45,921 bases of DNA from an uncultured Bacteroidales bacterium (GTDB lineage Bacteria; Bacteroidota; Bacteroidia; Bacteroidales; FEN-979). Made by a program: the position numbers and the translations under genes. The stretch lies in the NCBI GenBank assembly GCA_903915465.1, contig CAIWTA010000034.1, forward strand, positions 1-45,921, written 5' to 3'. Shown piece by piece: positions 1-41,107 of the stretch. How positions within the stretch are numbered: position 1 is the stretch's first letter; each line of letters begins with the position of its first letter. The notes beneath the pieces are model-generated. The model ran no database searches, was not told the DNA's origin, and saw nothing but the letters and a program-made list of their open reading frames with translations.

Positions 1-1464
1 GATCCGTCAGATGTTACGAAATGCGACAGCTATACGCTTCCGGTGTTGACTGTAGGTGATTATTATACTGGTCCGGGAAAAACCGGAACGAAACTGCTTG
101 CAGGCGCTTCCATCACCAGCACACAAACTCTCTATGTCTATGCAGAAACTGGTACTATTCCGAACTGCTGGAAAGAGAACAGCTTCCTGGTTACCATCAA
201 TCCGTTACGTTCCATCAGCGGAACTATCAAATATTACAACACGCCAAAAACACCTTTGAACAATCTTACGCTTGCCCTGAAACAAGGACCAGCAACGATT
301 GCAACGAGCCTGCCTACGGGAAGTACTGGTGCCTATGCGTTTAATAATATTTGTCCGGGCACATACACCATCGAAGTTACTATCAACAATAAATCTGTTG
401 GAGGGATCAATTCAACCGATGCTGGTGCAGTAAATTACTGGGGTGCAGCCTTTGGGGAAATTGAACATGTTAAATTCCTTGCCGGAGATGTTGCAAAGAC
501 TCTTAATTTTATCAATGCAACAGATGCTTCTAGGGTCCAACGGTACTTTGTTTACGGAACCCCGTTCGACAAAGATCCCTGGTCTTACTGGAAAAAAGGC
601 GATAAGGTTCTAAGTAACAGTAACCCGATCCCTATTCCAACATCATTTCTCGTAACGGTCACGACATCTAATATTGTCAACTTTGATCTGTACGGTATGT
701 GCACAGGTGATTTTAACGGAAGTTTCGTCCCTGGGACAGTAAAATCGGCCAGTACAACAATTCAGCTTCTTTCTGAAAATGTAAAGAAGATCGGCGCTGG
801 CCAGGAGTTCGAATTGGGTCTTCGTACTTCTTCACGGATGGAAGTCGGGGCTGTTTCTCTAATCCTGGATCTCCCGTCTGATCTGGTGGAAGTAAGCGAT
901 GTTAGCCTGATTGGAAGCAACGATAAACCAGATTTTGCAATCAACGGCAATGCGCTTACTATTGGGTGGAATTCAACAACACCGGTAAGCACAGAGGTTG
1001 CCACGGATTTAGTGGTTCTGAAACTGAAGACAACGGCTAATTTCACTGAAGGCAAAACAATCCGCCTCAGTCTTGCTTCTGACCCGCTGAATGAATTGGC
1101 AGATGGCAGTTCAACGGTGATACAGGATGTAATCCTGAATACAGATATCATAGCTAATTCTCCTGTTGGAATGACTGATCAGTCTGGTAATAATGCCCTT
1201 ACACTGATCAATTACCCCAACCCATTCACTGAATCTACAACACTACGCTATACTTTGCCGGTTGATGGATATGTTTCCATAGAAATCCATGATATGATTG
1301 GACAAGTAATAAAAACGCTGGTTGACAAAAATCAGGCCAGTGGCACTTATACGCTAAAGGTGGATGCGCGTACCATGTCGCAAGGCGTGTATACCGCAAT
1401 CCTCCGGGTACATAACGACAATGCTGAAATGGTGAAAACCATAAAATTTGTTGTAAACAAATAG
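1..1464 (+). CDS. Secreted T9SS-sorted protein, 5'-truncated by window edge; dockerin-like segment, cohesin-like domain, C-terminal type A sorting domain
   Basis: Reading frame is open from base 1 (DPSDVTKCDSYTLPVLTVGDYYTGPG...), so the GTG at 43 is probably not the true start. C-terminus LINYPNPFTESTTLRYTLPVDGYVSIEIHDMIGQVIKTLV...GVYTAILRVHNDNAEMVKTIKFVVNK is a typical T9SS sorting domain. Confidence 0.85.
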   Translation, partial: DPSDVTKCDSYTLPVLTVGDYYTGPGKTGTKLLAGASITSTQTLYVYAETGTIPNCWKENSFLVTINPLRSISGTIKYYNTPKTPLNNLTLALKQGPATIATSLPTGSTGAYAFNNICPGTYTIEVTINNKSVGGINSTDAGAVNYWGAAFGEIEHVKFLAGDVAKTLNFINATDASRVQRYFVYGTPFDKDPWSYWKKGDKVLSNSNPIPIPTSFLVTVTTSNIVNFDLYGMCTGDFNGSFVPGTVKSASTTIQLLSENVKKIGAGQEFELGLRTSSRMEVGAVSLILDLPSDLVEVSDVSLIGSNDKPDFAINGNALTIGWNSTTPVSTEVATDLVVLKLKTTANFTEGKTIRLSLASDPLNELADGSSTVIQDVILNTDIIANSPVGMTDQSGNNALTLINYPNPFTESTTLRYTLPVDGYVSIEIHDMIGQVIKTLVDKNQASGTYTLKVDARTMSQGVYTAILRVHNDNAEMVKTIKFVVNK

Positions 1465-2119: not shown

Positions 2120-5100
2120 ATGAAAAAGTGTTTACTGTTTTTGTTCGCATTGATGATGATATGCGGATATGCTATCGGGCAAACTTACCTGACCGAATCT
2201 TTTGAGGGTGCTTGGAGTGGAACTCCCGCTGCGCCTATTGGATGGACAAGTGTTGACGGAACTGGGGCTACAAATAAGCAATGGGAAAAAGCAACCTATT
2301 CCGCTGGAACCTGGACACCAACAGGTGGTGGAACTTACAAACCTGCTGGTGCGGTAGATGGAAGTTCAGTTGCTCATTATAATGATTATAGTGCAACTGC
2401 TCTTCAGGTCGATAAACTGCAGACTCCATTGATCAATTTAGGCAGTTCCACGAATCCAAGGCTTGTTTTTTATTATTCATACCCATATTCATCCTGGTCT
2501 GGATCTTTCAAAGTATATGCTTCAAATAATGGCGGCACCATATGGAATTTATTGAACACTTATAGTTTTACTGGGTCTGTCACAACATGGACCAAAATCA
2601 GTATTCCAATCCCATCTTTGTACAAAGTTTCAAATGCTATGTTTTCATTTGAAGTCACTGCTGGTTATGGAAATGCAGATTTATGGTTTGATAATGTAGT
2701 AGTTGATGAAACACCTGCTCCTCTTACTTTAACAAAAACCATTAAATCATCCGGTGGGGATTATTCTACATTTACTGCTGCTATAAATGCACTCAACGAA
2801 GCCGGAGTGGGTGCTGGCGGTGTAACATTTAATGTTGATGCAAATTTTATTTCAACTGAGGATTGCCCTACTATAACTGCAACCGGTACTTCAGGCAATC
2901 CTATTGTTTTCCAAAGATTCGGTACAGGTGCTAACCCTCTTATTAAACCTACCGGCGGCACAGGCACTTCTGACGCAGGGATTAAAATTGCAGGTGGTGA
3001 TTATATCACCTTCGACGGGATTGATATTACCATAGCAACAGGTTCCTCTGTTGAATATGGCTACTACATCTACAACGCTTCCGCCACAAACGGTGCACAA
3101 TATAATACGATCAAAAACTCCAAAATTACTTTAAACAGGACAAATACATCATCCATTGGAGTATATCAAATATATGTAACTTCTCCCACTAGTGCGGCGG
3201 GAGCTAACTCATATAACAAGTTTTATAATTTAACAATAGAAAATGCTTATAACGGAATTTATTTACTTGGATTATCAGCATATCCTGATATAAATACTGA
3301 AATAGGAACTACTGGTAGCGGACAAACAACAATTGGCGCTGCAACGGCAAATGATATAGGAAATGGCTCATCGACGACTTATGGGATTAGAGCGGCTCAA
3401 CAATCAAGCATGAAAATATTTTCCTGTGAAGTAAGAAACGTAACTGGTACTTCATCTTCTTATAATGTTTACGGCATATGGCTCGATGGATTAAAAGGAA
3501 CAAACGCAATTTATCAAAATAATGTTCATGACATAAAATGTACCAGTACATCAAATGGTTCTGTTATAACCGGTATCCGGGCAGATGTTGCTTCCGGTGT
3601 GATAGCAAACATTTATAATAATTTTGTAAGCGCTATTTCTTCCGCAAGTACAACCTCAGCAACGACTCAATACGTCAGAGGTATTGCTTGTAATGTTGGT
3701 GCGGGAGTTGGAACGGTAAATGTTTATTACAACTCCATAAGGTTAGATTGTTCTGCTAATATTTCTTGCACTGCACTTTATACCCAATCGGGGACAATGA
3801 ATGCTGTTGATAATGTTCTTGCGAATTTCTCAACAACAGGAGCAACTTCGAAAAGATATTGTTTTTATGTTTCGAGTGGAACATTAACAAAATCAAATTA
3901 CAATGACTTTTATATTATTACGAGTGGTACAGGGAATAATGTAGGTTATTATTCCTCTGCAGACAGGAATACACTAGGAGACTGGCAAACAATTACCAGT
4001 AAAGATGGAAACTCAAAAAATGTAGACCCGGTTTTTTCTACTACTACTAATTTACATTCAGCCAGCTCTGATCTGGATGGTGCAGGAGTTACCATTTCTA
4101 CTGCAAACGGAGATGCACTTGATATAACAACTGATATAGATGGAGCTACACGTAGCGCCACACCTGATATTGGCGCCGATGAGTTTACACTTTCAACCAA
4201 AGTTCTTGGAACCCTTGTCTATAACCAGGCAAGTATCGCGAATGTAAATATCGGTACAAACAATAACCCGATTCTAAGAATTGATATACCTGTTACAGGC
4301 TCAACCGGTATCCTGAATTTAAATTCATTGGTCGTTACATCTTTGAATACAAATGATGCAGATATTGCAGCAAGTGGTGTAAAACTTTACCGTACCTCAA
4401 CACCAACATTCGGCATAGTAAATCCATTGGGAACAGCACAAAGTTTTAGTGGAGGGACAGTAACTTTCGGTTCATTAGGATATGATCTTCCTTCCGGCAC
4501 CACCTATGTTTGGGTAACTTATGACATAGCCCCCGGTGCAACCCTGGGTAATACTGCGGATGCGAAAATTCTTACCAATGCAATTAATATTAATGGTTCA
4601 ACTTATCCCGCAAGCGATCAAAGTCCAACCGGCTCAAGAACTATTGCTGATGACAAGGGGCTTGCTTCTGTCACGGTTACTCAAGCATCCATTGCAAAGG
4701 CAATAAAGGGTTCTTCAAATAATGAAACCCTTTTACTCGATTTCAATGTAACAGGCTTAACGGGTACACTTCCATTAAATTCAGTGGCCGTAACTTATAC
4801 AGGTACCTCCAGTACTGATATTCCCGCCAGTGGTGTGAAGCTGTACAGAACAGCAACGAATGTTTTCTCTACATCGACTCCTTTGGGCTCCGCCGTTTCA
4901 TTATCAGGTGGAATCGCAACTTTCAGCACTCTCGCATACGATCTGCCTTCAGGTCATACTTATGTGTGGGTAGCTTTTGATGTCGCTTCCACAGCAACAA
5001 CCAATAATAAAGTAGATGCGAAAATTGCTGTAAACGGGATGAATGTCAATGGAAACACGTATAATAGTATTGAAGATAATCCTGCCGGAAACAGAAATAT

Positions 5101-8100
5101 TTTCTACACCACATATCCTTTGCCATTTAGTGAAGTATTTGCGGGTTCCACTTCTTCTCTACCAACGGATTGGTCTTATCTGACAACAGGTTTCTCCCAA
5201 AGCACAGGATCACCATATCACGGGAATAATAATACTAATGGGATTTTTAAGAATCTCTGGAGTTCTGGAACGACAGCTAATGCTATAACACCCTTGATGG
5301 GCCCTATTACAGCAACGAGCATGCTTGATTTCGATTACCGGATCGTCGATTACACAAGTTATCCTACAACAGCTACTACATTAGCAATTCTTGGAACAGG
5401 TAATATAAAAGCAGAGATTTCTACAGATGGAAACTCATTTTCACCAGCCCTGACCATAGATAACACAAATCATGTAGTTTCAACAAATTTCGTGACTAAA
5501 TCCGTTAACCTGTCTGCATATTCAGGACAAAATGTATATATCAGATTTACTGCAACATGGGGAACTTCAGGAGATTATTATGTAGATATAGATAATGTCA
5601 GTGTTTATTCACCCATAACCATGTCTTATGTATCCAGCACGACAACCCAAACAAATACGAACCCTGTTCCCAGGGGCTTAACCAATCAAGAAGTTATTGG
5701 GATTCAGGTCGTAACAAGTGGGGCATTGCTTCCTCTTTCTATCACTCAATTCAAGCTTAATCCCAACGGGACATCGCTTTTAGCAGATATTTCAAACGCC
5801 AGAATATGGTCTACCGGAACAAGCTCCACTTTTGCAACTACCCTCTTATTCGGTGGGCCTGTGGCACCAAGCGGTACTTATACGATCAGTGGCAATCAAC
5901 CACTTGCTGCCGGAACCAATTATTTCTGGCTCACTTATGATATTCCTTCTGGTGCAACACAAGGTGATTTTATTGATGCCCAATGTACACAAATAACTGT
6001 CGGGGGTTCCTTTCAAGTACCGTTGGTTGCTGATCCGGGAGGCACCAGGCAGATTTATGCACCATACGCCCCTTTGCCTTATTCACAAGACTTTGAGAGC
6101 ACATGGATAAATAAAAACGGCTTACGGGATGTACCAGGTCTCAATTGGCTCAACACTCCTGCAACCGGTAACACTTCATGGCGCCGACAGGATGATGGCG
6201 CTTCGGCAAGCTGGTCATATCTTAGTGGTATGGTCGTTCCTTCCGGAAGCTCTTATGCGGCCAACTTTCACACTTATGGGGCATCATCCGGATCAGGATA
6301 TTTCGATCTTTATGTTGATATGAGTACGGTCGGTGATAAAATTCTTACTTTCACGTACCAGAATGCAACCGGGGCAGATCAATTGGACGTCTATCTTTCA
6401 ACTAATGGTGGAACATCTTTCGGGTCTGCACTCCTTTCTCTTGTTTCCGGTTATACATGGGCTCCTCAGACCGTTGCTTTGGGATCATCAACTTCCAGCA
6501 CTTGTGTCATTCGCTTTAAAGCCACTTCCGATTATGGTGATGATGATATTGGTATTGACAATCTTAGTGTTGTTGTTGAAGAACCTATGTTCTATGTTTC
6601 CAGCACAACTACCCAAAACAATGCTGGGAATGTTGCAGTAGGTTCAAATGATCAGGAAATAATCGGTATCCAGATCGTTACTACCGGCACCTTATTGCCG
6701 ATTAATGTTTCATCTTTTACTCTTACCAACAACAGCTCATACGTGGGCGATATAACCAATGCCAGGATTTACTATACGGGAAGTTCCAGTGTCTTTGCCG
6801 CCACAAACCTTTTCGGAACACAGGCAAACCCGCCGGCAAACTATAGCATCACCGGTAACCAGCCATTGAATTCAGGCAATAACTATTTCTGGCTGGCTTA
6901 TGATATTTCAGGTAGCGCTCATATTGGTGCCTTTGCTGATGCTCAGTGCAATTTAATTACTGTAGCCGGAAATCAAACGCCCACTATTCAGGATCCTGCA
7001 GGCAGCAGGACAATCAAGGGGCCTCTGGCAGGAACTAAAACTGTGGGTGCTACAGGTGCCGATTATACTTCACTTACCGGTGCTACCGGATTATTTGCTG
7101 ATATAAATATGTTGGGTTTGGGAGGTAATTTAACGGTAGATATTATCAGTGATTTATCGGAGGATGGTACCACTGCCTTGAACCAATGGAACGAATCAGG
7201 TGCAGGCAATTACACCCTTACCATCCAACCAGGTGAAGCCGTTAATAAAACCATCTCCGGATCTTATACAAGTGGCCTTATCCGCCTGAATGGTGCAGAC
7301 TGGGTAACTATTGATGGTAGTTACAGCGGAAGTGGAAAGTATTTATCCTTCAGCAATACCAATGCCGGAACATCAAGCGCTGTGATTTGGTTATCCAGTG
7401 CTTCCGTGTCGAATGGTGCTACAAATAATACTATTAAAAACTGCTATCTTTCAGGAAATTCATCAAACACTACCCTGGCTTGTATAGTAAGCAGCAGCGG
7501 GACAACCATTGGCGGTGTTGCAGAGGCTCAGAATAATAACAACACTTACCAGAATAATGTTATAATAAAATCTTTTTATGGTATCGCTGTCGTTGGTCCA
7601 ACAGGAAATGAAACCGGTGTATTAATCACAGAAAACACAATTGGCTCTCCAACACTGACTGATATGATCGGCTTGGCTGGTATCGGCTTATATCAACAGA
7701 GTGGCGTGATTTCCAAGAACAGTATTTCCGGCGTGACCACAGCATCTACTTATACTTCATCTGGTATATTAGTAACTGGAAGTACCAGTGATATTACGAT
7801 AAAGGAAAACACGATCAGTAATATTAAAAACACCAATGCAGGCGGTTATGGCAGTAACGGGATTCAGTTGAACTCCTCCTCCTTAACAGCCAACGTTACG
7901 GTTGTAAACAATATGATTTCTGACATTGCCTCTGTTGGATATTCCCTGGCTGGTGTCGCAGATAATGGTTATGGAATTATTGCTGTGACTGGCGGCGGTT
8001 ATAACATTTTTTTCAACAGCATAAATCTAAATACCAATCAAAGCTCTTTAACCGGTCTGCCTTCTGCAATAAATATTACTTCCGGTATTACTACTGCCGG

Positions 8101-9472
8101 GTCGATTGATTTGAGGAACAACATTTTTGCAAATACACAGACATATGGAACCAACAGGTATGCCATATACTGTGCCGCTGCTGCAACAGTGTTTACTAAG
8201 ATCGACTATAATGATTACTTTACAACTGCTACCAATCTGGGTTACCTGGGAGCCATCATCCTCGATATAACAGCATGGAGAACAGCTACAGGTAAGGATG
8301 CGAAAAGTATCTCAGCCAATCCTATGTTTGTAAGTCCAACCAATCTTCATATCAATACTGCTGTGATATCTCCTGTTAATAATACTGGGATTGAGCTGGA
8401 ATCCGTTCTGACAGATATTGATGGTGACTTGAGAAACAACCCTCCGGATATAGGTGCCGATGAATTCTCAAGGTCGGGACCAAAGACAGTTGCACCAACT
8501 CTCACTGCTTGTCCGGGATCGCTGATCGTGATTCCTGTGAAGGTTAACAACTTCAATAATATCGGCACAATTTCCCTTACCCTTGATTATGACCCTGCAG
8601 TTCTCACTTTCCAGAATATGGCTTCCACAACAATCCCTTCAACTTGGGAAATCAACGATACTGCGTCAGCCGGGAGATTTATCATCGGTGGATTTGGCCC
8701 CGGGTTCTCGTTATCTGATGGAAGTGACCTTTTCAACCTGACCTTCATTTATAAAGGTGGAATCAGCTCCCTTAACTGGTATGATGGCGATGGAAGTTCC
8801 TGTGAATATTCAGACGCAACCACTCATGATGCACTGATTGATCAGCCCCAATCAGATTACTATACAAACGGCGCAGTTTCGCAGTCACCAGATGTGAAAG
8901 GCCTCTTTCTATCGCTTTTCCTTGAAGGATTATATAATGGTGGCCACACCATGAGGAAAGCGCAGAACGAATTTGGCGATCAGTTCAAAGCCGACACCGC
9001 CGATGTGATCAAAGTTGAACTACATAGCGCTACAACTTACTCTGACCCACCTGTATACTTCGTTGCTAAAGTCAGCCTTAGCACAAGTGGCGAAGCAATT
9101 GTTTGCATACCAGCAGTGTATAATGGTTCCTACTATGTAACTATCAAACATCGCAATAGTATCGAAACAACAACTGCCGCTCCTGTTTCATTTTTCGGAG
9201 CTACTATCAGTTATCCATTTAATAAGCCATCGAGAGCCTATGGCGAAAATCTTACCGTTTTCGACGATTTCGTTGCTGCAATTTACGCCGCCGATGAAAA
9301 CCAGGATGGAATTATTGACGGAACTGACCTGTCGGAGATTGCCAACCTCGTACCAACTGCTCCCAGTGGTTATATTGCACAAGATGTCAATGGTGATGGG
9401 TTGATTGACGGTACAGATTTGTCAATCACCGGCAATAATGCTGATGCCGCTATAAATGCAATGGTCCCTTAA
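2120..9472 (+). CDS. Giant secreted mosaic protein (2450 aa): choice-of-anchor-J-like segments, parallel beta-helix regions, four BNR-associated N-terminal-type domains, cohesin-like domain, C-terminal dockerin-like module
   Basis: Signal peptide MKKCLLFLFALMMICGYAIGQ; repeated YVW/FWL(T/A)YD(I/V) domains; cohesin-like IPVKVNNFNNIGTISLTLDYDPAVLTF; C-terminal DENQDGIIDGTDLS...DVNGDGLIDGTDLS. Confidence 0.9.
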   Translation: MKKCLLFLFALMMICGYAIGQTYLTESFEGAWSGTPAAPIGWTSVDGTGATNKQWEKATYSAGTWTPTGGGTYKPAGAVDGSSVAHYNDYSATALQVDKLQTPLINLGSSTNPRLVFYYSYPYSSWSGSFKVYASNNGGTIWNLLNTYSFTGSVTTWTKISIPIPSLYKVSNAMFSFEVTAGYGNADLWFDNVVVDETPAPLTLTKTIKSSGGDYSTFTAAINALNEAGVGAGGVTFNVDANFISTEDCPTITATGTSGNPIVFQRFGTGANPLIKPTGGTGTSDAGIKIAGGDYITFDGIDITIATGSSVEYGYYIYNASATNGAQYNTIKNSKITLNRTNTSSIGVYQIYVTSPTSAAGANSYNKFYNLTIENAYNGIYLLGLSAYPDINTEIGTTGSGQTTIGAATANDIGNGSSTTYGIRAAQQSSMKIFSCEVRNVTGTSSSYNVYGIWLDGLKGTNAIYQNNVHDIKCTSTSNGSVITGIRADVASGVIANIYNNFVSAISSASTTSATTQYVRGIACNVGAGVGTVNVYYNSIRLDCSANISCTALYTQSGTMNAVDNVLANFSTTGATSKRYCFYVSSGTLTKSNYNDFYIITSGTGNNVGYYSSADRNTLGDWQTITSKDGNSKNVDPVFSTTTNLHSASSDLDGAGVTISTANGDALDITTDIDGATRSATPDIGADEFTLSTKVLGTLVYNQASIANVNIGTNNNPILRIDIPVTGSTGILNLNSLVVTSLNTNDADIAASGVKLYRTSTPTFGIVNPLGTAQSFSGGTVTFGSLGYDLPSGTTYVWVTYDIAPGATLGNTADAKILTNAININGSTYPASDQSPTGSRTIADDKGLASVTVTQASIAKAIKGSSNNETLLLDFNVTGLTGTLPLNSVAVTYTGTSSTDIPASGVKLYRTATNVFSTSTPLGSAVSLSGGIATFSTLAYDLPSGHTYVWVAFDVASTATTNNKVDAKIAVNGMNVNGNTYNSIEDNPAGNRNIFYTTYPLPFSEVFAGSTSSLPTDWSYLTTGFSQSTGSPYHGNNNTNGIFKNLWSSGTTANAITPLMGPITATSMLDFDYRIVDYTSYPTTATTLAILGTGNIKAEISTDGNSFSPALTIDNTNHVVSTNFVTKSVNLSAYSGQNVYIRFTATWGTSGDYYVDIDNVSVYSPITMSYVSSTTTQTNTNPVPRGLTNQEVIGIQVVTSGALLPLSITQFKLNPNGTSLLADISNARIWSTGTSSTFATTLLFGGPVAPSGTYTISGNQPLAAGTNYFWLTYDIPSGATQGDFIDAQCTQITVGGSFQVPLVADPGGTRQIYAPYAPLPYSQDFESTWINKNGLRDVPGLNWLNTPATGNTSWRRQDDGASASWSYLSGMVVPSGSSYAANFHTYGASSGSGYFDLYVDMSTVGDKILTFTYQNATGADQLDVYLSTNGGTSFGSALLSLVSGYTWAPQTVALGSSTSSTCVIRFKATSDYGDDDIGIDNLSVVVEEPMFYVSSTTTQNNAGNVAVGSNDQEIIGIQIVTTGTLLPINVSSFTLTNNSSYVGDITNARIYYTGSSSVFAATNLFGTQANPPANYSITGNQPLNSGNNYFWLAYDISGSAHIGAFADAQCNLITVAGNQTPTIQDPAGSRTIKGPLAGTKTVGATGADYTSLTGATGLFADINMLGLGGNLTVDIISDLSEDGTTALNQWNESGAGNYTLTIQPGEAVNKTISGSYTSGLIRLNGADWVTIDGSYSGSGKYLSFSNTNAGTSSAVIWLSSASVSNGATNNTIKNCYLSGNSSNTTLACIVSSSGTTIGGVAEAQNNNNTYQNNVIIKSFYGIAVVGPTGNETGVLITENTIGSPTLTDMIGLAGIGLYQQSGVISKNSISGVTTASTYTSSGILVTGSTSDITIKENTISNIKNTNAGGYGSNGIQLNSSSLTANVTVVNNMISDIASVGYSLAGVADNGYGIIAVTGGGYNIFFNSINLNTNQSSLTGLPSAINITSGITTAGSIDLRNNIFANTQTYGTNRYAIYCAAAATVFTKIDYNDYFTTATNLGYLGAIILDITAWRTATGKDAKSISANPMFVSPTNLHINTAVISPVNNTGIELESVLTDIDGDLRNNPPDIGADEFSRSGPKTVAPTLTACPGSLIVIPVKVNNFNNIGTISLTLDYDPAVLTFQNMASTTIPSTWEINDTASAGRFIIGGFGPGFSLSDGSDLFNLTFIYKGGISSLNWYDGDGSSCEYSDATTHDALIDQPQSDYYTNGAVSQSPDVKGLFLSLFLEGLYNGGHTMRKAQNEFGDQFKADTADVIKVELHSATTYSDPPVYFVAKVSLSTSGEAIVCIPAVYNGSYYVTIKHRNSIETTTAAPVSFFGATISYPFNKPSRAYGENLTVFDDFVAAIYAADENQDGIIDGTDLSEIANLVPTAPSGYIAQDVNGDGLIDGTDLSITGNNADAAINAMVP
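8476..8884 (+). other. Cohesin-like domain in the 2450-aa protein
   Basis: SLIVIPVKVNNFNNIGTISLTLDYDPAVLTF...SSLNWYDGDGSSCEYSDATTHDALIDQPQSDYYTNGAVS; aligns by eye with the four copies in the next gene. Confidence 0.75.
9292..9469 (+). other. Dockerin type I-like module (two DxNxDGxxDxxD loops)
   Basis: DENQDGIIDGTD and DVNGDGLIDGTD calcium-loop motifs at the extreme C-terminus. Confidence 0.8.
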
Positions 9473-9480
9473 TATTAACC

Positions 9481-9509
9481 GAATCCCCTTGTCGATGACA
9501 AGGGGATTC
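9481..9509 (+). terminator. Perfect intercistronic stem-loop (13-bp stem, 3-nt loop)
   Basis: GAATCCCCTTGTC-GAT-GACAAGGGGATTC is an exact inverted repeat, 8 nt after the stop codon and 14 nt before the next start. No U-tract follows, so it may be an attenuator or RNA-processing element rather than a full terminator. Confidence 0.75.
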
Positions 9510-9523
9510 AATATCTTAAAGCT

Positions 9524-11845
9524 ATGAATATCAGATGTTTTATTTTGGGTTGCCTGCTTTTCGTGGGAAATTACTTGTATGCACAAAATGCCCCGATAAC
9601 CACTGCTCCGGCGATTGGAAATGCGGTTATCGGACAACATGTAACGACACCAATCACTGTGAAGGACTTCACTGATATTGGCACATTTTCTCTTACACTG
9701 GATTACCAAACTTCGGCTCTGACCTTCCTGAGCGCGACCTTTGATCCGGCATTTACCGGATTAACCGTAAATACTACAACTCCGGGAAAGATTATAATTA
9801 CCTGGACTGGGTCAGCCGGGATCACATTGCCCGACCAAACACAATTGCTGAATATTACCTTTACATATCTCTCCGGAATATCACTTTTAACCTGGAATAC
9901 CACAGGAACATCCTGTCAGTATAAAAAATTTGCAGGCGGTTCATATACGGTTTTAAATGATTCGCCAAAAACTTCCTATTATATTAATGGGGTAGTTGCT
10001 GCCCATTTAGCACCAAAGACCTATGCCCCCGTCATTACCAATGCTTCGCCAGGTACCATATATTTACCGATAACTGTGAAGAATTTTACCAGGATAAGTT
10101 CTCTCTACCTTATGTTTACTTATGATGTTAATACCCTGGCTTACCAGAATTCATTTACTGCAAATCCAGGATTGTCCGGTGATTTCCAGGTTGGAAACCA
10201 ACCAGGGCTATTTATTATTTCCTGGTATGGAAATCCCGGCACTTTGACGGATGGCAGCACATTGGTTACCCTGAAATTTAATTATACCAACTCTGCTGGA
10301 AATGCAAATTTCTCTGCGCTTACCTGGTATGAATGTGGCCCATGCTGTGAATATACTGATGAATCCTCAAATATTCTGTACGATTCACCTACGGGTGATT
10401 ATTATTTCAACGGCCTTGTAACCGGGCAAGTATCCCCGGTTACCTGGTTGCCCTCAATCAGCAATGCAACACCCGGAAACACAATCCCTGTCCCTGTCCA
10501 GGTGAACGGTTTCACCAACATCAGAGCTATATCCCTGACCTTTAAATACGATCCTGCAGTTCTGACGCTTCCTACAGGAGCATTTACGCCCAATCCGATT
10601 TTTGGCGGTACACTTCTGGTTAGCAATCGACTTCCCGGGCCAGATGGGAAACGTACCATTGTGATCGGCTGGAATGGGAGCCCTAAAACTTTACCAACCG
10701 GAAGCTCCATTGTGACATTTAATTTTAATTATCTTTCCGGCGCTACTCCGCTAAGATGGTGTACCGGAAGTGATTCTTGTGAGTATGCTGATGCCTTGTT
10801 TAATCCATTATGGAAGAGCCCGCCTGGCCAGTATTTTCTGGATGGGCTCATTGCTTCGCATGTTGCGCCCATAACCAAAATTGAAACGGGAGCTGGAATA
10901 ATCGGAAAATCGCTGGGAATTCCTGTAACGGTCATTAATTTTACCAATATTGGTGGCTTTACCCTGACCCTGAATTATGATCCTGGAGTAATACACTACG
11001 AAATGGCATCCCTTGCTTCCACCATTGGAGGTACATTTACATCAACCAATGCCGGACCGGGTCAGCTTATAATGCAATGGACGGGGCCACCAACTACTTT
11101 GCCTGATGGCAGTATTTTAGTCGAAATTTCCTTCACTTATCTTGGAGGAAATACTTCTCTCCAATGGTTTTGTAATGGAAATTCGTGCCTTGTTTATGAG
11201 GGTTTGACGATGCTGCCATTGTATGATCAGCCAAAAACAACATTTTATACAACTGGCTCAGTATCTCCAGGAAAGAGCTGTAACCTTTCGTTACTTCTTG
11301 AAAGCTTATATGGCGGCGGCGGTACTTTAAATAAAGCACAGGATGAACTGGGAGATCATTTCTCCGAAACTACAGCAGATGAGATCACTGTTGAATTACA
11401 CAAAGCTTCTGATTACTCTGTAATTGACTATCGAGCAATAAAAGTCATGTTAAACACTAACGGCCTGGCAACATTTGCAGTGCCAACCACATTCACAAAA
11501 CGGTGCTATTTAGCCATTAAACACCGTAACAGCATTGAAACCATAACAGCCGACTCTGTATCCTTTAGCGGAAGCACCTTCTCTTATTCATTTAATACCG
11601 CCACGAAAGCTTTTGGCTCAAATATGAAACAGATGCCCGATGGCGTTTACGTAATTTATGTAGGCGACAGCAATCAGGACGGTATTGTTGATGGTTCTGA
11701 CATTTCGGATATAGGGAACTTAGCAGACATTGGAGCCAGTGGTTACATCCCGGAAGACCTGAATGGAGATGGTTTGGTTGATGGGTCTGATATCTCCCTT
11801 TTCGGAAACAATGCTGACGCAGGTATCGGGGCTATTTATCCATAA
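9524..11845 (+). CDS. Scaffoldin-like secreted protein (773 aa): four tandem cohesin-like domains, linker module, C-terminal dockerin
   Basis: Signal peptide MNIRCFILGCLLFVGNYLYAQ; cohesin-like repeats at about 9587-10008, 10009-10430, 10431-10861 and 10862-11277; dockerin GDSNQDGIVDGSDIS...EDLNGDGLVDGSDIS at about 11663-11842. Confidence 0.88.
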   Translation: MNIRCFILGCLLFVGNYLYAQNAPITTAPAIGNAVIGQHVTTPITVKDFTDIGTFSLTLDYQTSALTFLSATFDPAFTGLTVNTTTPGKIIITWTGSAGITLPDQTQLLNITFTYLSGISLLTWNTTGTSCQYKKFAGGSYTVLNDSPKTSYYINGVVAAHLAPKTYAPVITNASPGTIYLPITVKNFTRISSLYLMFTYDVNTLAYQNSFTANPGLSGDFQVGNQPGLFIISWYGNPGTLTDGSTLVTLKFNYTNSAGNANFSALTWYECGPCCEYTDESSNILYDSPTGDYYFNGLVTGQVSPVTWLPSISNATPGNTIPVPVQVNGFTNIRAISLTFKYDPAVLTLPTGAFTPNPIFGGTLLVSNRLPGPDGKRTIVIGWNGSPKTLPTGSSIVTFNFNYLSGATPLRWCTGSDSCEYADALFNPLWKSPPGQYFLDGLIASHVAPITKIETGAGIIGKSLGIPVTVINFTNIGGFTLTLNYDPGVIHYEMASLASTIGGTFTSTNAGPGQLIMQWTGPPTTLPDGSILVEISFTYLGGNTSLQWFCNGNSCLVYEGLTMLPLYDQPKTTFYTTGSVSPGKSCNLSLLLESLYGGGGTLNKAQDELGDHFSETTADEITVELHKASDYSVIDYRAIKVMLNTNGLATFAVPTTFTKRCYLAIKHRNSIETITADSVSFSGSTFSYSFNTATKAFGSNMKQMPDGVYVIYVGDSNQDGIVDGSDISDIGNLADIGASGYIPEDLNGDGLVDGSDISLFGNNADAGIGAIYP
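11663..11842 (+). other. Dockerin type I-like module of the four-cohesin protein
   Basis: DSNQDGIVDGSD and DLNGDGLVDGSD loops at the C-terminus. Confidence 0.8.
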
Positions 11846-11878
11846 GAATATTCCTTCTTTAAATTCTATTTTGTTACT

Positions 11879-13861
11879 ATGATTATCAGGTGGTTGTTCA
11901 TAGGATTTTTGCTCATGCTTATTCATTGTCTGGAAGCACAGAATGCACCTGTTACAACTATAGCAACCGTTACCAATGCAATTCCCAGCCAGGACATCAC
12001 CGTTCCGATAACTGTTACAGGTTTTAATAACATTGGTTCAGCCACACTGACACTGGATTATGATTATTCAAAGCTGCATTTCGTTTCAGGAACTGAAAAT
12101 CCCCTTCTTTCCGGAAATTTCAACGTGGGAGATAATGACCTTGGAACTGGTATGCATCGCGTGGTGCTCGGATGGTACGGGTCGGGAACATCTTTGCCAA
12201 ACGGAACCTGGATTGTAAATTACATCTTTACTTATCTTACAGGAACCCCATCCCTGCAATGGTACGAAATGGGGCCATCTTGTGAATATACCGATGCAAA
12301 CGCCAATATTCTCAACGACATTCCTACATCTTCTTATTATATCAATGGCTTAGTATGTGGTTCTATGTCAGGGCCTGGCTTGGTAACCGGCAGTAGTTCT
12401 ATTTGCCAGGGTCAGACATCTGTTGCTTACAGCATCGCTCCTTTGCAGAATGTAACGGGATATCATTGGGCTGTTCCGCCAGGATCTTCAATTGCCAGTG
12501 GAAATAATACCAACGCAATTACGGTCGACTTCTCTCCTTCTGCCGCTTCCGGGAATGTTGCTGTAAATGGGGTAAACGAATGTGGAAATGGTACAGTTGC
12601 ATCATTGCCGGTAGCTGTCTATAACCTGCCCGTTGCAAATGCCGGTAATGATACGACCATCTTATATGGAACTTCTGCATTCCTTCACGCAGCCAATGGA
12701 GGAACCGGTTCATATATTTATTCTTGGTCTCCTGAAAATCTGCTGGTTAATCCGAATGTTCAAAATCCGCAAACTGTGCAGCTTACTTCGACTACCATTT
12801 TCCATCTTGTTGTTACAAACCAGGGATCACCCTGCACGAGCAGTGATAATATTGCCGTAGCGATTTCAGGAGGAGCACTGAGCATCAATCCTACCGCGGT
12901 TCCTGGCAATATTTGCCGTACCTCTTATGCCCAGCTTTTTGCAAATGCAGGCGGAGGCACCGGGAACTATAGCTATTCCTGGACTTGCATTCCGGCAGGA
13001 ACCCCTCCATGGACTTCCAACTTAGCCAATCCTTTAGTCAGCCCGGATTCTTCAAGTCATTATTTCCTGACCGTTACCGATGGGTTTTCTACTTCTTCCG
13101 GATCAACAAACCTTATCATCGACCAACTGCCAGCTGCTGCAATCAGCGGTGGCGATTCTCTTTGCGAAGACGGATCGATGACTATTATCCGGATTGATCT
13201 CACCGGCATTCCCCCCTGGTCATTTATTTATTCAAATGGCCTGACATCAACCACAATAAACAATCAAATCAATACTCCTTACCTGATTGTGACTTCAGAT
13301 CCGGGAATTTACACGGTGCTTTCAATTAATGACGAGAATTGTTATGGTACCACATATGGCGCTGCACCTGTCAGGGTATTCCCAATTCCGGTAGCACCGA
13401 TAATTACACAAACTGGATCTATCCTCTTCTCGAACTCATCCTCCGGAAATCAATGGTACAGAAACCTGGTCGCTATTTATGGTGCGACAAACCAAAGCTA
13501 TACTCCAACTGAAAATGGGCAATATTACGCCATTGTCACTCTGAATGGATGCAGTTCGGATTCGTCCAACAATCTCGATGTAACAATTATAAATACAGAA
13601 AATTATCTTTTCAGCAACTTTCACATTTTCCCAAACCCTGCAAAAGATATTTTGCTAATAAAAACATCCGGCCCTCCTGATGAATTCATTAATGTAAAAA
13701 TTTTTTCAAGTTATGGCAGATTCTTGAAAAATTATGAATTCACAGGTGGGCCTTTATTTAATGAATACCGTATTGATATACGAAATTTTGACGGCGGGGT
13801 TTATTTGCTCATGATTGAGAATGGCAGAAAAAACATTATTCAAAAACTTATTATCTTGTGA
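11879..13861 (+). CDS. Secreted protein (660 aa) with N-terminal cohesin-like domain, PKD/Ig-like region and T9SS C-terminal sorting domain; candidate anchoring protein
   Basis: Signal peptide MIIRWLFIGFLLMLIHCLEAQ; cohesin-like VPITVTGFNNIGSATLTLDYDYSKLHF...SLQWYEMGPSCEYTD; C-terminus FHIFPNPAKDILLIKTSG...GGVYLLMIENGRKNIIQKLIIL. Confidence 0.88.
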   Translation: MIIRWLFIGFLLMLIHCLEAQNAPVTTIATVTNAIPSQDITVPITVTGFNNIGSATLTLDYDYSKLHFVSGTENPLLSGNFNVGDNDLGTGMHRVVLGWYGSGTSLPNGTWIVNYIFTYLTGTPSLQWYEMGPSCEYTDANANILNDIPTSSYYINGLVCGSMSGPGLVTGSSSICQGQTSVAYSIAPLQNVTGYHWAVPPGSSIASGNNTNAITVDFSPSAASGNVAVNGVNECGNGTVASLPVAVYNLPVANAGNDTTILYGTSAFLHAANGGTGSYIYSWSPENLLVNPNVQNPQTVQLTSTTIFHLVVTNQGSPCTSSDNIAVAISGGALSINPTAVPGNICRTSYAQLFANAGGGTGNYSYSWTCIPAGTPPWTSNLANPLVSPDSSSHYFLTVTDGFSTSSGSTNLIIDQLPAAAISGGDSLCEDGSMTIIRIDLTGIPPWSFIYSNGLTSTTINNQINTPYLIVTSDPGIYTVLSINDENCYGTTYGAAPVRVFPIPVAPIITQTGSILFSNSSSGNQWYRNLVAIYGATNQSYTPTENGQYYAIVTLNGCSSDSSNNLDVTIINTENYLFSNFHIFPNPAKDILLIKTSGPPDEFINVKIFSSYGRFLKNYEFTGGPLFNEYRIDIRNFDGGVYLLMIENGRKNIIQKLIIL

Positions 13862-14020: not shown

Positions 14021-15826
14021 ATGAAGAAAAATGTACTAATTTGTTCAATGATCTTTCTATTGATCGGGTTGAACACAGGATTTGCCAGAGAAATTTACCC
14101 TCAAACAGACACTGTTCGTGTATGGTCAGGATTAACAGACACAGATTGGTTTCTTGCGAGTAACTGGGAAGGGGCAATTGTCCCATCAGATAATGATGTC
14201 GTAGTAATTCCTTCGAACTTACAACGGTATCCGGTTTTGGGACCAAATGAATACGTTATCTGCAACGGTCTTACCATTAATGACGTAGGGGATTTTGATA
14301 AAATGCCTTCCGGCGGAAGAATGGTTGTTTCCGGCGATTTTTATATTGATGGATCTCTGACTATCAAGGTTGGCGGTTTTCTGGATATCACTGACGGAGG
14401 TTCGCTTACAATTACCGAGAATTTGAAAAACTCCGGCAGCATGATTATTGAAAATGGAGGATCCCTGATTACAGGAGGAACCGTCACAGGTCTTGCCAGC
14501 GTAATCCGGGAATTTCCCAATGATTTAGGATGGCATTTAATTTCTTCACCGGTGGATTACCAGGAAATCTGTAACGGTTCCTTTGCCCCTTTGCCATCAA
14601 ACTTCGCAACTACACCGGCAAATACATGGGATTTCTATAAATGGTCAGCCGATTGCCCAATAGAACCTTTACTGCGCTGGAGAAATTTAAGAAATTTGGA
14701 TTTATCAGTCAATACTGCTGATTTTGGGACTGCCCCAAAATTTGATGTTCAGAAAGGCTATCTTGCAGCATACAACCCCGGTTTCTCTACAACGAAAACT
14801 TTTTATGGAACACCCAATACAGGAGATCAAACATTTAATTTCCTTGATGTTACCAGTAATTGTTCATGGGAATTAGCCGGTAATCCATATCCTTCTGCAT
14901 TTGTCTGGGATGATGTAGCCGGAAAAGGGAATTTAATGTCTGGCTATTATTACGTTTGGAACGAGTTACGTGCAGGAAGTCCAGGATATGAAGCATATCT
15001 GGATGGAGCCTATCATTCAACCGGAGTAAATGGCAATATTCCCCCTATGCAAGGATTTTTTGTAAAAGTCGATCCTTCTAAGTCAAAACAAATTGATGTT
15101 CCTAATTCTTCCCGAATTCATGATAGTAACCATTGGTTAAAAAACACCTCTGTTACCCCGTCAAATCAGCTGATTATTACTATGGGAACAGCAACAGTTT
15201 ATGATGAGGCTTACATCATCTTTGGAACAAATGGAAGCTTAGGCAAAGATTGGTATGATGCAGAAAAAATGTTTAGTATTAACAATCAGGTTCCTCAGGT
15301 TTATACCATTGTCGATAACGACCTGAAAACACTTATCAATGCAATGCCATTTACAAATTACCCAGTGAGCATTCCAGTCGGAATCATTACTCCAAATCAA
15401 GGAACTTTTTCTTTTAAGGTTACCGGATTTGATAGTTTTACATCCTTCCCTGGGTTATCATTGGAAGATTTAAAATTGAATACTTCGCAAAATATGGTTG
15501 CAAATCCTGTTTATTCTTTCACTGCTGATGGAAATGAAGATGCCAGCCGCTTCCTTTTGCATTTTTCCGGACCAATCGGTATCAGTGAAAAGAACACCAG
15601 TACAATCAACATCTACTCCAACGAAAAAACCGTTTTCATCAACAACCCTGCTGGTTTTCACAATGCACAGGTAAGTGTAAGCAACCTGTTAGGACAGGAA
15701 ATCTTAACCCGGAAGCTGAGTGATCAGAATTTGAACCAAATTAATGTAAATGCACTGAAAGGCTATTACATTGTAAAGGTTCAGACCGAATCTTCTGTGC
15801 AAACAGCCAAGGTTTATATTAATTAA
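14021..15826 (+). CDS. Secreted T9SS-sorted protein (601 aa)
   Basis: Signal peptide; WSGLTDTDWFLASNWEGAIVPSDNDVVIP motif; GNPYPSAFVWDDV; C-terminal sorting domain ending GYYIVKVQTESSVQTAKVYIN. Confidence 0.87.
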   Translation: MKKNVLICSMIFLLIGLNTGFAREIYPQTDTVRVWSGLTDTDWFLASNWEGAIVPSDNDVVVIPSNLQRYPVLGPNEYVICNGLTINDVGDFDKMPSGGRMVVSGDFYIDGSLTIKVGGFLDITDGGSLTITENLKNSGSMIIENGGSLITGGTVTGLASVIREFPNDLGWHLISSPVDYQEICNGSFAPLPSNFATTPANTWDFYKWSADCPIEPLLRWRNLRNLDLSVNTADFGTAPKFDVQKGYLAAYNPGFSTTKTFYGTPNTGDQTFNFLDVTSNCSWELAGNPYPSAFVWDDVAGKGNLMSGYYYVWNELRAGSPGYEAYLDGAYHSTGVNGNIPPMQGFFVKVDPSKSKQIDVPNSSRIHDSNHWLKNTSVTPSNQLIITMGTATVYDEAYIIFGTNGSLGKDWYDAEKMFSINNQVPQVYTIVDNDLKTLINAMPFTNYPVSIPVGIITPNQGTFSFKVTGFDSFTSFPGLSLEDLKLNTSQNMVANPVYSFTADGNEDASRFLLHFSGPIGISEKNTSTINIYSNEKTVFINNPAGFHNAQVSVSNLLGQEILTRKLSDQNLNQINVNALKGYYIVKVQTESSVQTAKVYIN

Positions 15827-38926: not shown

Positions 38927-41107
38927 ATGAAAACACTTCTATGGAATCTTTTTGTTGCGATAGCAATACTGCTTGCAACAGGATTAAGCACTTACGCACA
39001 GGTTTCCGTCAATACAGATGGAAGCGATCCCGACAACTCCGCCATGCTGGATGTGAAATCTGCAAACAAAGGTGTGCTGATCCCGCGGATTGCCCTTACC
39101 GGAACTTTGGATGCCACAACCATTGCATCGCCGGCAATAAGCTTACTGATCTATAATACAGCTACGGCCGGAACATCCCCCAACAATGTGGCCCCTGGTT
39201 ATTATTACTGGAGTGGCACTGCCTGGACCCGGTTGAGCGTTTTTACAGGGGGTTCAGGAACGACAAATTATGTTCCCAAATGGGCCTCAACAAGCGCACT
39301 TGGCAATTCTCTTCTTTTTGATAACGGGAGCAATGTCGGAATCGGCACAGCAACGCCCGGGGCAAAGCTGGATGTAGCCGGCCGTATATGGCAAACAAAT
39401 ACCGGACAATCGGTTTTTCTCGGGGAAGGTGCAGGAGCGTCTGATGACCTTTACTACGGTCGGAACGTTTTTGTCGGCTACCAGGCAGGGTGGTCAAATA
39501 CAACTGGTTCGAATAACACAGCAATTGGATTCAGATCACTTTATTTCAACAAAAGCGAGTACGGTAACACGGCAATTGGACAATGGTCGCTTGCCAACCA
39601 TACAACGGGGACTTATAACACGGCAACTGGATATGACGCGCTTATTTCCGACACTTCCGGTTATAATAACACGGCACATGGAGCTTTTGCACTTGGCAAC
39701 AACACATCTGGGTATGATAACACGGCATATGGAAAAAACGCGCTTGGTAGTAACATTACAGGTACGGACAATACTGCGATTGGTTTTTTCGCCGACGTAG
39801 CTTCCGATACGCTGGTGAACGCAACGGCCATCGGGGCTTATGCACAGGCAGGTTCCGACAACAGCCTGGTACTGGGAGGAATTAGCGGAATTAACGGGGC
39901 AACTGCATCGGTCAATGTCGGTATCGGCACAACAACCCCTTCTGCAAAGCTTGATGTCATTGGTGCCGTAAAAATCACCGATGGAACCCAGGGCGCAAAC
40001 AAAGTGCTTACCTCTGATGCCAATGGACTTGCAGTCTGGCAGGCTCCGGCAGCTCCTCCAGCCGCCTGGCTGCTTGCAGGTAATGCCGGAACCGTCGCCG
40101 GTACGAACTTCATCGGTACGACAGATAATATTTCATTTGACATCCGCACCAGTAATCTTCTGAAGACCCGTATCACGACAAAAGGAGCGATAGAAACATA
40201 CAATACAGGGCATTCCGTTTTTCTCGGTGAAAGCGCAGGGGCCGTTGATGATCTTTCAGATAACAGGAATGTATTTATTGGTTATCAGTCGGGACATCTG
40301 AACACTTCAGGTAATTGGAATACGGCGGGGGGATATCAGTCGCTTTATACCAATACTACAGGTTATAATAATACGGCAATTGGATATAGTTCCCTTTATT
40401 TGAACTCAACGGGGTATTATAATACGGCAACCGGAATCAAGGCGCTTTATACCAACAATGCAGGAAGTTATAACATTGCAGATGGAGAAAATGCGCTTTA
40501 TTCCAATACAACCGGTATTGCAAATACGGCAATCGGATTTAATGCGCTTTATACCAACACAAACGGTTCTTACAACATTGGGATTGGTTTTCAGGCTGAT
40601 GTTGCTTCTAATTCCCTGGGTAATGCAATAGCCATCGGATCCAATGCAATTGTGTCGGCCAGCAACCAGGTCAGGTTGGGAGATGGGAATATTACCACCC
40701 TGTACTGCATGGGTGCATATGCAGGAACTGTAGGAACCACCAACAGGGACCTCTATGCCGATAATACCGGAAAGATAGGGTACATAGCATCTTCTGCCAG
40801 GTATAAGGATAACATAGCGGATATGGAAAACGTGAATTGGCTTTACAAACTCAGGCCGGTCAACTTCATTTACAAAACCGATGACAGCCATCTGAAACAG
40901 TATGGTCTCATTGCTGAAGAGGTGGAAAAGGTAAAACCTGAGTTTGTTAGTTATAATAGTGAAGGCAGACCTGAAACGGTTTCCTATTCATCCATGATCT
41001 CCCCCCTGATCAAAGCATTGCAGGAACAGAACGTGATGATCGAAAGTCAGCAGAAACAAATTGATGAACTGAAATTAATGGTCAGGGAGCTGATCAGCCG
41101 AAAATAA
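38927..41107 (+). CDS. Secreted repeat protein with C-terminal peptidase S74 intramolecular chaperone domain
   Basis: Signal peptide; two blocks of six 17-aa YadA-head-like repeats (TGYNNTAIGYSSLYLNS type); C-terminal SSARYKDNIADMENVNWLYKLRPVNFIYKTDD...YGLIAEEVEKVKPEFV and coiled-coil tail. Confidence 0.9.
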   Translation: MKTLLWNLFVAIAILLATGLSTYAQVSVNTDGSDPDNSAMLDVKSANKGVLIPRIALTGTLDATTIASPAISLLIYNTATAGTSPNNVAPGYYYWSGTAWTRLSVFTGGSGTTNYVPKWASTSALGNSLLFDNGSNVGIGTATPGAKLDVAGRIWQTNTGQSVFLGEGAGASDDLYYGRNVFVGYQAGWSNTTGSNNTAIGFRSLYFNKSEYGNTAIGQWSLANHTTGTYNTATGYDALISDTSGYNNTAHGAFALGNNTSGYDNTAYGKNALGSNITGTDNTAIGFFADVASDTLVNATAIGAYAQAGSDNSLVLGGISGINGATASVNVGIGTTTPSAKLDVIGAVKITDGTQGANKVLTSDANGLAVWQAPAAPPAAWLLAGNAGTVAGTNFIGTTDNISFDIRTSNLLKTRITTKGAIETYNTGHSVFLGESAGAVDDLSDNRNVFIGYQSGHLNTSGNWNTAGGYQSLYTNTTGYNNTAIGYSSLYLNSTGYYNTATGIKALYTNNAGSYNIADGENALYSNTTGIANTAIGFNALYTNTNGSYNIGIGFQADVASNSLGNAIAIGSNAIVSASNQVRLGDGNITTLYCMGAYAGTVGTTNRDLYADNTGKIGYIASSARYKDNIADMENVNWLYKLRPVNFIYKTDDSHLKQYGLIAEEVEKVKPEFVSYNSEGRPETVSYSSMISPLIKALQEQNVMIESQQKQIDELKLMVRELISRK

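Follow-up and report, generated by a model that had tools for sequence, protein, structure and literature searches.

Cohesin, X-dockerin and T9SS-anchor genes of a candidate surface-display system in an uncultured Bacteroidales bacterium

In the window, the 45,921-nucleotide stretch of DNA analysed here (contig CAIWTA010000034.1 of an uncultured Bacteroidales bacterium), four neighbouring genes, named 0 to 3, encode proteins assembled from cohesins, dockerins and sorting domains of the type IX secretion system (T9SS). Genes 1 and 2 end in the same tail, an X module followed by a dockerin (XDoc), which is found all over the source genome and which across related genomes goes together with a further domain, CohL, and not with the classical cohesins. 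It seems probable that a surface-display network composed of two separate cohesin-dockerin pairs, both anchored through the T9SS, exists in this bacterium, and the locus would be its scaffold part.

Genes 1, 2 and 3 all lie on the forward strand with intergenic gaps of 51 and 33 nt. Gene 1 (2120..9472) encodes an adhesin-like putative cargo protein of 2450 amino acids (aa), with a signal peptide, a choice_anch_J domain, BNR_assoc_N repeats, one cohesin (8465..8902, aa 2116-2261) and an XDoc (8900..9469, dockerin part 9290-9469). Gene 2 (9524..11845, 773 aa) is scaffoldin-like and consists of four tandem cohesins (9575..11287, with slightly overlapping profile envelopes at 9575-10018, 9995-10438, 10418-10873 and 10850-11287) and an XDoc (11276..11842, dockerin part about 11663-11842 with two calcium-type loops). 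Gene 3 (11879..13861, 660 aa) has no dockerin and contains a cohesin (11930-12379), a PKD-like domain (12374-12613), an Ig-like stretch and a C-terminal T9SS sorting domain (CTD, 13610-13858). Among the three genes only gene 3 has a CTD in the Pfam and NCBIfam searches (PF18962, 1.2e-11; TIGR04183, 3.1e-7); its other Pfam matches are to PF00963 (9.7e-6) and PF19408 (4.7e-21). The first-pass annotation of the window had described the same three co-directional genes, with one, four and one cohesins, dockerin ends on the first two and a sorting domain on the third alone, and both the coordinates and the profile searches bear this description out.

In the protein scan PF00963 exceeded its curated cut-off over four stretches of gene 2 (1.3e-21) and one of gene 3. 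The gene 1 cohesin was missed there, but it passed the cut-off in a scan of the genome DNA (5.2e-7) and matched a local cohesin profile with an E-value of 1.7e-51. A profile made from 15 cohesin sequences matches solved cohesins (3l8q, 3.2e-6; 1g1k, 2vn5 and 4ums, about 1e-4). Genes 1 and 2 share a homologous tail of 189 aa, composed of an X module of about 129 aa and a dockerin with two calcium-type loops. For gene 1 the dockerin family PF00404 was near threshold in the protein scan (21.9 against 22.9 bits) and passed in the DNA scan (27 bits), whereas the gene 2 dockerin was not called by Pfam at the usual thresholds. Nevertheless positions 130-176 of the XDoc family profile match solved dockerins by sequence (6kg9, 0.0012; 2vn6, 0.0015), and paired loops of the DxNxDGxxDxxD type, about 30 aa apart, are kept in nearly all XDoc copies of the genome.

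A structure prediction had been suggested together with the first annotation. The AlphaFold2 model of gene 2 cohesin 4 plus XDoc reached a mean predicted local distance difference test (pLDDT) score of 85.6, with the cohesin above 90 and the X module at about 90. When this model was searched with Foldseek against the PDB the best match, covering the whole chain, was the Coh9-X-DocII part of CipA (4fl4_L, 3.0e-12). The next matches were cohesins, 2xdh and 2jh2 among them, with template modelling (TM) scores on the target mostly of 0.6-0.8. On the strength of the matches to solved modules and of these predicted folds we regard the modules of genes 1-3 as genuine cohesin, X and dockerin modules and not as generic Ig-like domains, and the classical parts are filed within the cohesin (PF00963) and dockerin (PF00404) families.

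The source genome (4.07 Mb, 98.95% complete) encodes 15 classical cohesins in 9 open reading frames (ORFs). The genome-wide scan for further dockerin proteins, also proposed at the outset, returned 31 near-full XDoc tails and three fragments, and the gene 2 protein has a paralogue with identical module layout on contig C327. XDoc forms the exact C-terminus in 29 of the 31 copies. The sole two exceptions (L064 on contig C171 and L070 on contig C163) continue for about 300 aa or more beyond it. About 150 distinct XDoc proteins were seen in the source genome and its relatives, and none has a T9SS CTD, although neighbouring genes have one. The T9SS translocon itself is present (SprA, 6e-167).

The classical cohesins were considered as receptors of XDoc in 61 relatives, 37 of them genomes of the same family, and in 395 genomes of the class. 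Within the family, classical cohesins occur in 8/11 genomes with XDoc and in 19/26 others (n=37, p=1), and across the 61 genomes the presence of XDoc is independent of them (p=0.18). One genome with 16 XDoc copies has zero cohesins by either profile, and several members of the class combine many XDoc with few or no cohesins. Docking of XDoc on classical cohesins is thus unsupported by presence and absence. Moreover, relatives that have no XDoc at all still keep the gene-2/gene-3 pair; their multi-cohesin protein finishes with a truncated beta-solenoid instead, so that XDoc can be seen as an exchangeable tail. Multi-cohesin proteins and some CohL proteins that have neither CTD nor XDoc (L192-L201, L220 and L274; for example L194:2300-4786) stop abruptly after one or two beta-solenoid turns, at a conserved point of the VTGNLIIP or LTVNGSLTLE type, and this end may be a further C-terminal assembly or sorting module.

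Since XDoc matches CohL and not the cohesins, the likelier receptor of the gene 1 and gene 2 tails is a CohL-CTD protein from another part of the genome. CohL, which recurs at the N-terminus of proteins encoded behind XDoc genes, is about 180 aa long; as an isolated domain it has no Pfam match (E<=10), and it has no NCBIfam match. Among the 61 relatives it is present in 11/11 XDoc genomes and in 0/50 others (p=2.4e-12), and among the 395 class genomes in all 6 with a complete XDoc and in none of the remaining 389 (p=2e-13). G337, the one class genome in which X modules lack a dockerin (L221 on contig C78, where the X module is the end of the protein), is also without CohL, which is possibly a natural loss of the CohL-dockerin pair. 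CohL is encoded by the following gene, at a distance of up to 100 nt, in 28/42 cases for XDoc genes and in 1/156 for other genes. Most complete CohL proteins end in a CTD, 12 ORFs end in XDoc, and others consist of CohL alone; several genomes have such stand-alone proteins (202-211 aa) behind XDoc genes. In the source genome T9SS-sorted CohL anchors are encoded on contigs C157 and C165 and probably also on C261. Genes behind XDoc genes that lack CohL proved a mixed set with no common domain visible, and a further receptor among them was not retained. On contig C3 (about 19000-55300; L057-L059, G000) there is a tandem array of eight XDoc proteins of 1245-1687 aa, and in four of them CohL precedes the XDoc.

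In the AlphaFold2 model of a natural CohL-XDoc fusion of 390 aa (L314) CohL is a confident beta-sandwich, mostly above 90 pLDDT. The best Foldseek match of this model in the PDB was again CipA Coh9-X-DocII (1.2e-5 to 5e-5), and the top 28 matches were mostly cohesins, with target TM scores of about 0.45-0.55. By contrast hhalign found no sequence relation between CohL and the classical cohesins (0.3%), and a sequence search of the PDB with CohL gave no match. CohL is therefore, judging from the model, cohesin-like by fold alone, a predicted cohesin-like fold without profile match to the cohesin families and invisible to sequence searches.

Co-variation between CohL and XDoc was evaluated by mirror-tree comparison of 27 adjacent pairs; the X module was the control, and the comparison was repeated on length-matched subsamples, with a single pair from each genome and without divergent pairs. 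CohL co-varies with the dockerin (rho 0.54, 0/2000 permutations), whereas its correlation with the X module of the same protein is low (rho 0.15, 180/2000). With one pair per genome the values are 0.57 and 0.11, respectively.

The second putative pair involves gene 0 (1..1464, forward strand), whose 5' end lies off the contig. This gene encodes a T9SS-anchored protein with a Cna-B-like domain and a degenerate dockerin (together CnaDoc, 181-735 by the CnaDoc alignment), a stretch that looks cohesin-like by eye (about 736-1190) and a CTD (1192-1461; PF18962, 5.3e-8). A conserved cassette recurs in about a dozen of the relatives' clusters; in it a CnaDoc-T9SS gene of the gene 0 type is followed by a CTD-less cohesin gene and then by a gene for a cohesin-T9SS protein. 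The window shows the same order, with gene 0, genes 1-2 and gene 3, so that gene 1, where the first-pass annotation had placed the start, is not the first gene of the cluster. CnaDoc is present in 23/31 cohesin-positive genomes, every genome with at least three cohesin matches included, and in 0/30 cohesin-negative ones (p=2.6e-10). The dockerin part of CnaDoc co-varies with the last cohesin of the next gene (rho 0.57, p<0.001), compared with 0.35 for the Cna-B part. For the classical cohesins, gene 0 is a candidate anchor. We are less sure of this pair than of that of CohL and XDoc because its parts are physically linked.

The network that we propose would work as follows. The XDoc of gene 1, gene 2 and about 29 other CTD-less secreted proteins would be a plug that docks calcium-dependently on CohL, and CohL at the N-terminus of T9SS-sorted anchors would be the socket at the cell surface. 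Where CohL stands next to XDoc in adaptor proteins, the chain could be lengthened. The classical cohesins of genes 1-3 would in turn bind the degenerate Cna-B/dockerin part of gene-0-type T9SS proteins, encoded directly upstream. Gene 2, as it joins four classical cohesins to an XDoc, would bridge both systems, its cohesins holding gene-0-type dockerins and its XDoc a CohL anchor. Binding, its calcium dependence and the surface location are what we infer here from module identities, predicted folds, gene layout, co-occurrence and co-variation. In loci L333 and L344 a cohesin-XDoc gene is directly followed by a CohL-T9SS gene, and in L344 a Cna-B/dockerin T9SS gene also precedes it, so that all the proposed parts adjoin in one gene run. 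A more doubtful extension is that CohL-CTD proteins bind XDoc proteins before export, in the periplasm, and take them along through the T9SS translocon. If this were true, dozens of CTD-less proteins would owe both their export and their hold on the surface to a non-covalent dockerin-cohesin bond.

Several points weigh against the two-pair network. There is no CohL within the window, and the dockerin parts have low confidence in both AlphaFold2 models (about 40-66 pLDDT in that of gene 2). Divergent subtypes supply most of the mirror-tree signal: once five divergent pairs are removed, the CohL-dockerin correlation is down to 0.18, with the X-module control at 0.15. Kinship among the genomes means that the Fisher p-values overstate independence, and remote CohL domains in XDoc-free genomes could be missed because the CohL profile was seeded from neighbours of XDoc genes. 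As for the second pair, the CnaDoc dockerin is degenerate, the source genome has two CnaDoc for 15 cohesins, and the co-occurrence of CnaDoc and cohesins may reflect linkage in a shared operon or polypeptide, not binding.

The first-pass annotation had given the genes other roles, in which the gene 3 cohesin captures the gene 2 dockerin; the gene 2 cohesins would then capture gene 1 and other XDoc proteins, and a cellulosome-like tree of a single specificity would result. A scaffoldin-like gene 2 and a T9SS-anchored cohesin in gene 3 stand. All these parts are adjacent in an operon-like run, cohesin-XDoc fusions occur in other genomes too (L300, L329, L333, L344), and the cohesin and dockerin folds are real. 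The capture of the gene 2 dockerin by gene 3 is not our first choice, as XDoc follows CohL: XDoc and the classical cohesins fail to co-occur, one genome with 16 XDoc has no cohesin, the gene-2/gene-3 pair persists without XDoc, and in L333 and L344 it is a CohL-CTD gene that follows the cohesin-XDoc gene. We regard wiring by one specificity as unlikely, although XDoc may still bind classical cohesins directly to some degree.

A reading in which the export machinery recognises XDoc as a signal for secretion or sorting (or as a fold cap), with CohL as a co-secreted partner or chaperone and not a permanent receptor, is in our opinion quite unlikely. The almost strictly C-terminal position of XDoc, never joined to a CTD, and the small stand-alone CohL proteins behind XDoc genes would fit such a role; the two internal copies, the paired-loop dockerin half, the predicted cohesin fold of CohL and the fact that most complete CohL proteins bear a CTD or XDoc of their own speak against it. 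That the cohesin-like domains are mere beta-sandwich repeats of adhesins, and the dockerin-like tails unrelated calcium-binding caps, we consider about as unlikely, given the perfect co-occurrence of CohL and XDoc, their adjacency, the dockerin-specific co-variation and the conserved CnaDoc/cohesin cassette.

The cargo of the proposed two-pair network was assessed with Pfam on 27 XDoc proteins, which contain BACON, MAM, fn3, BNR/sortilin, PKD, CUB and FG-GAP repeats, together with single peptidase M14, trypsin-like and arylsulfotransferase-like proteins. No glycoside hydrolase (GH) was present among the 25 of 36 Pfam families listed for these proteins. Likewise no carbohydrate-binding module (CBM) was found by Pfam in gene 2, which holds cohesins and XDoc only; the other scaffold-like proteins of the genome were partly scanned. 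The cargo is mostly adhesin-like or binding proteins and for this reason the cellulosome-like label first given to the cluster is rejected; the system would be one for display and is not a cellulosome as usually defined.

A close architectural parallel is CipA of Clostridium thermocellum, in which tandem cohesins, an X module and a C-terminal dockerin are combined as in gene 2. The type I cohesins of CipA and its X-dockerin for a type II anchor (SdbA/OlpB) also resemble the two-class logic of display and anchoring suggested here. The type II anchors of clostridia are attached to the S-layer, whereas a T9SS CTD takes this place in our locus. Unlike the CipA system, the putative CohL receptor has no sequence similarity to classical cohesins, the cargo is without detected cellulases, and no scaffoldin with a CBM was seen among the partly scanned scaffold-like proteins. 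Cohesins and dockerins outside cellulose degradation are also represented by the GH84 cohesin of Clostridium perfringens and by the Archaeoglobus cohesin 2xdh. Those cases are single enzymes or orphan modules, while here dozens of proteins across the genome bear the tag, for which there would be dedicated anchors.

For Ca. Stygibacter (Cloacimonadota) a cellulosome-like, T9SS-anchored cohesin complex has been proposed from metagenome-assembled genomes (PMC8542988). As in our case, dockerin proteins and a multi-cohesin protein were inferred from such genomes in the context of T9SS-type CTDs. However the Ca. Stygibacter scaffoldin itself bears a CTD, with repeated classical cohesins and CBM2/3, and its cargo comprises GH18, GH57 and peptidases (PMC8542988), whereas gene 2 is without a CTD and the dockerins would here be paired with a new receptor domain. 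A paper on rumen Bacteroidetes reported no cohesins or dockerins, consistent with other Bacteroidetes genomes (PMC5831590), and our literature searches returned no Bacteroidota T9SS dockerin system matching this one. Genomes in one family of uncultured Bacteroidota carry as many as about 30 cohesins and as many as 31 X-dockerins each, organised around T9SS anchors.

If the role proposed for CohL is true, it would be a previously undescribed class of cohesin-fold receptor missed by sequence profiles, and dockerin systems without a visible cohesin may for that reason be widespread and overlooked. CohL and XDoc would also offer defined partners for studying the route of CTD-less proteins to the cell surface in Bacteroidota and, provided that they bind as suggested, a new orthogonal pair for protein engineering.

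Downstream of gene 3 a further T9SS protein of 601 aa is encoded on the forward strand (14021..15826; TIGR04183). It is homologous to the CohL-CTD anchor from contig C157 but lacks the CohL domain; the match, with 33% identity (597 columns, 4e-80), is to the last ~540 aa of the C157 protein. A type A CTD (PF18962/TIGR04183) stands at the exact C-terminus of this protein and of the products of genes 0 and 3. At the other end of the locus, gene 0 begins within the repeat VGDYYTGPGKTGTKLLAGAS, and contig C232 (L050) ends in the same repeat. The C232 gene starts with a signal peptide and a cohesin, and both may be one gene split by the assembly. Farther away in the window (38927-41107) lies a gene for a 726-aa protein with a C-terminal endosialidase-type chaperone (Peptidase_S74, 3.9e-9), flanked by an alpha-2-macroglobulin-like gene and a gene for a class II (Asp/Lys/Asn-type) tRNA synthetase.

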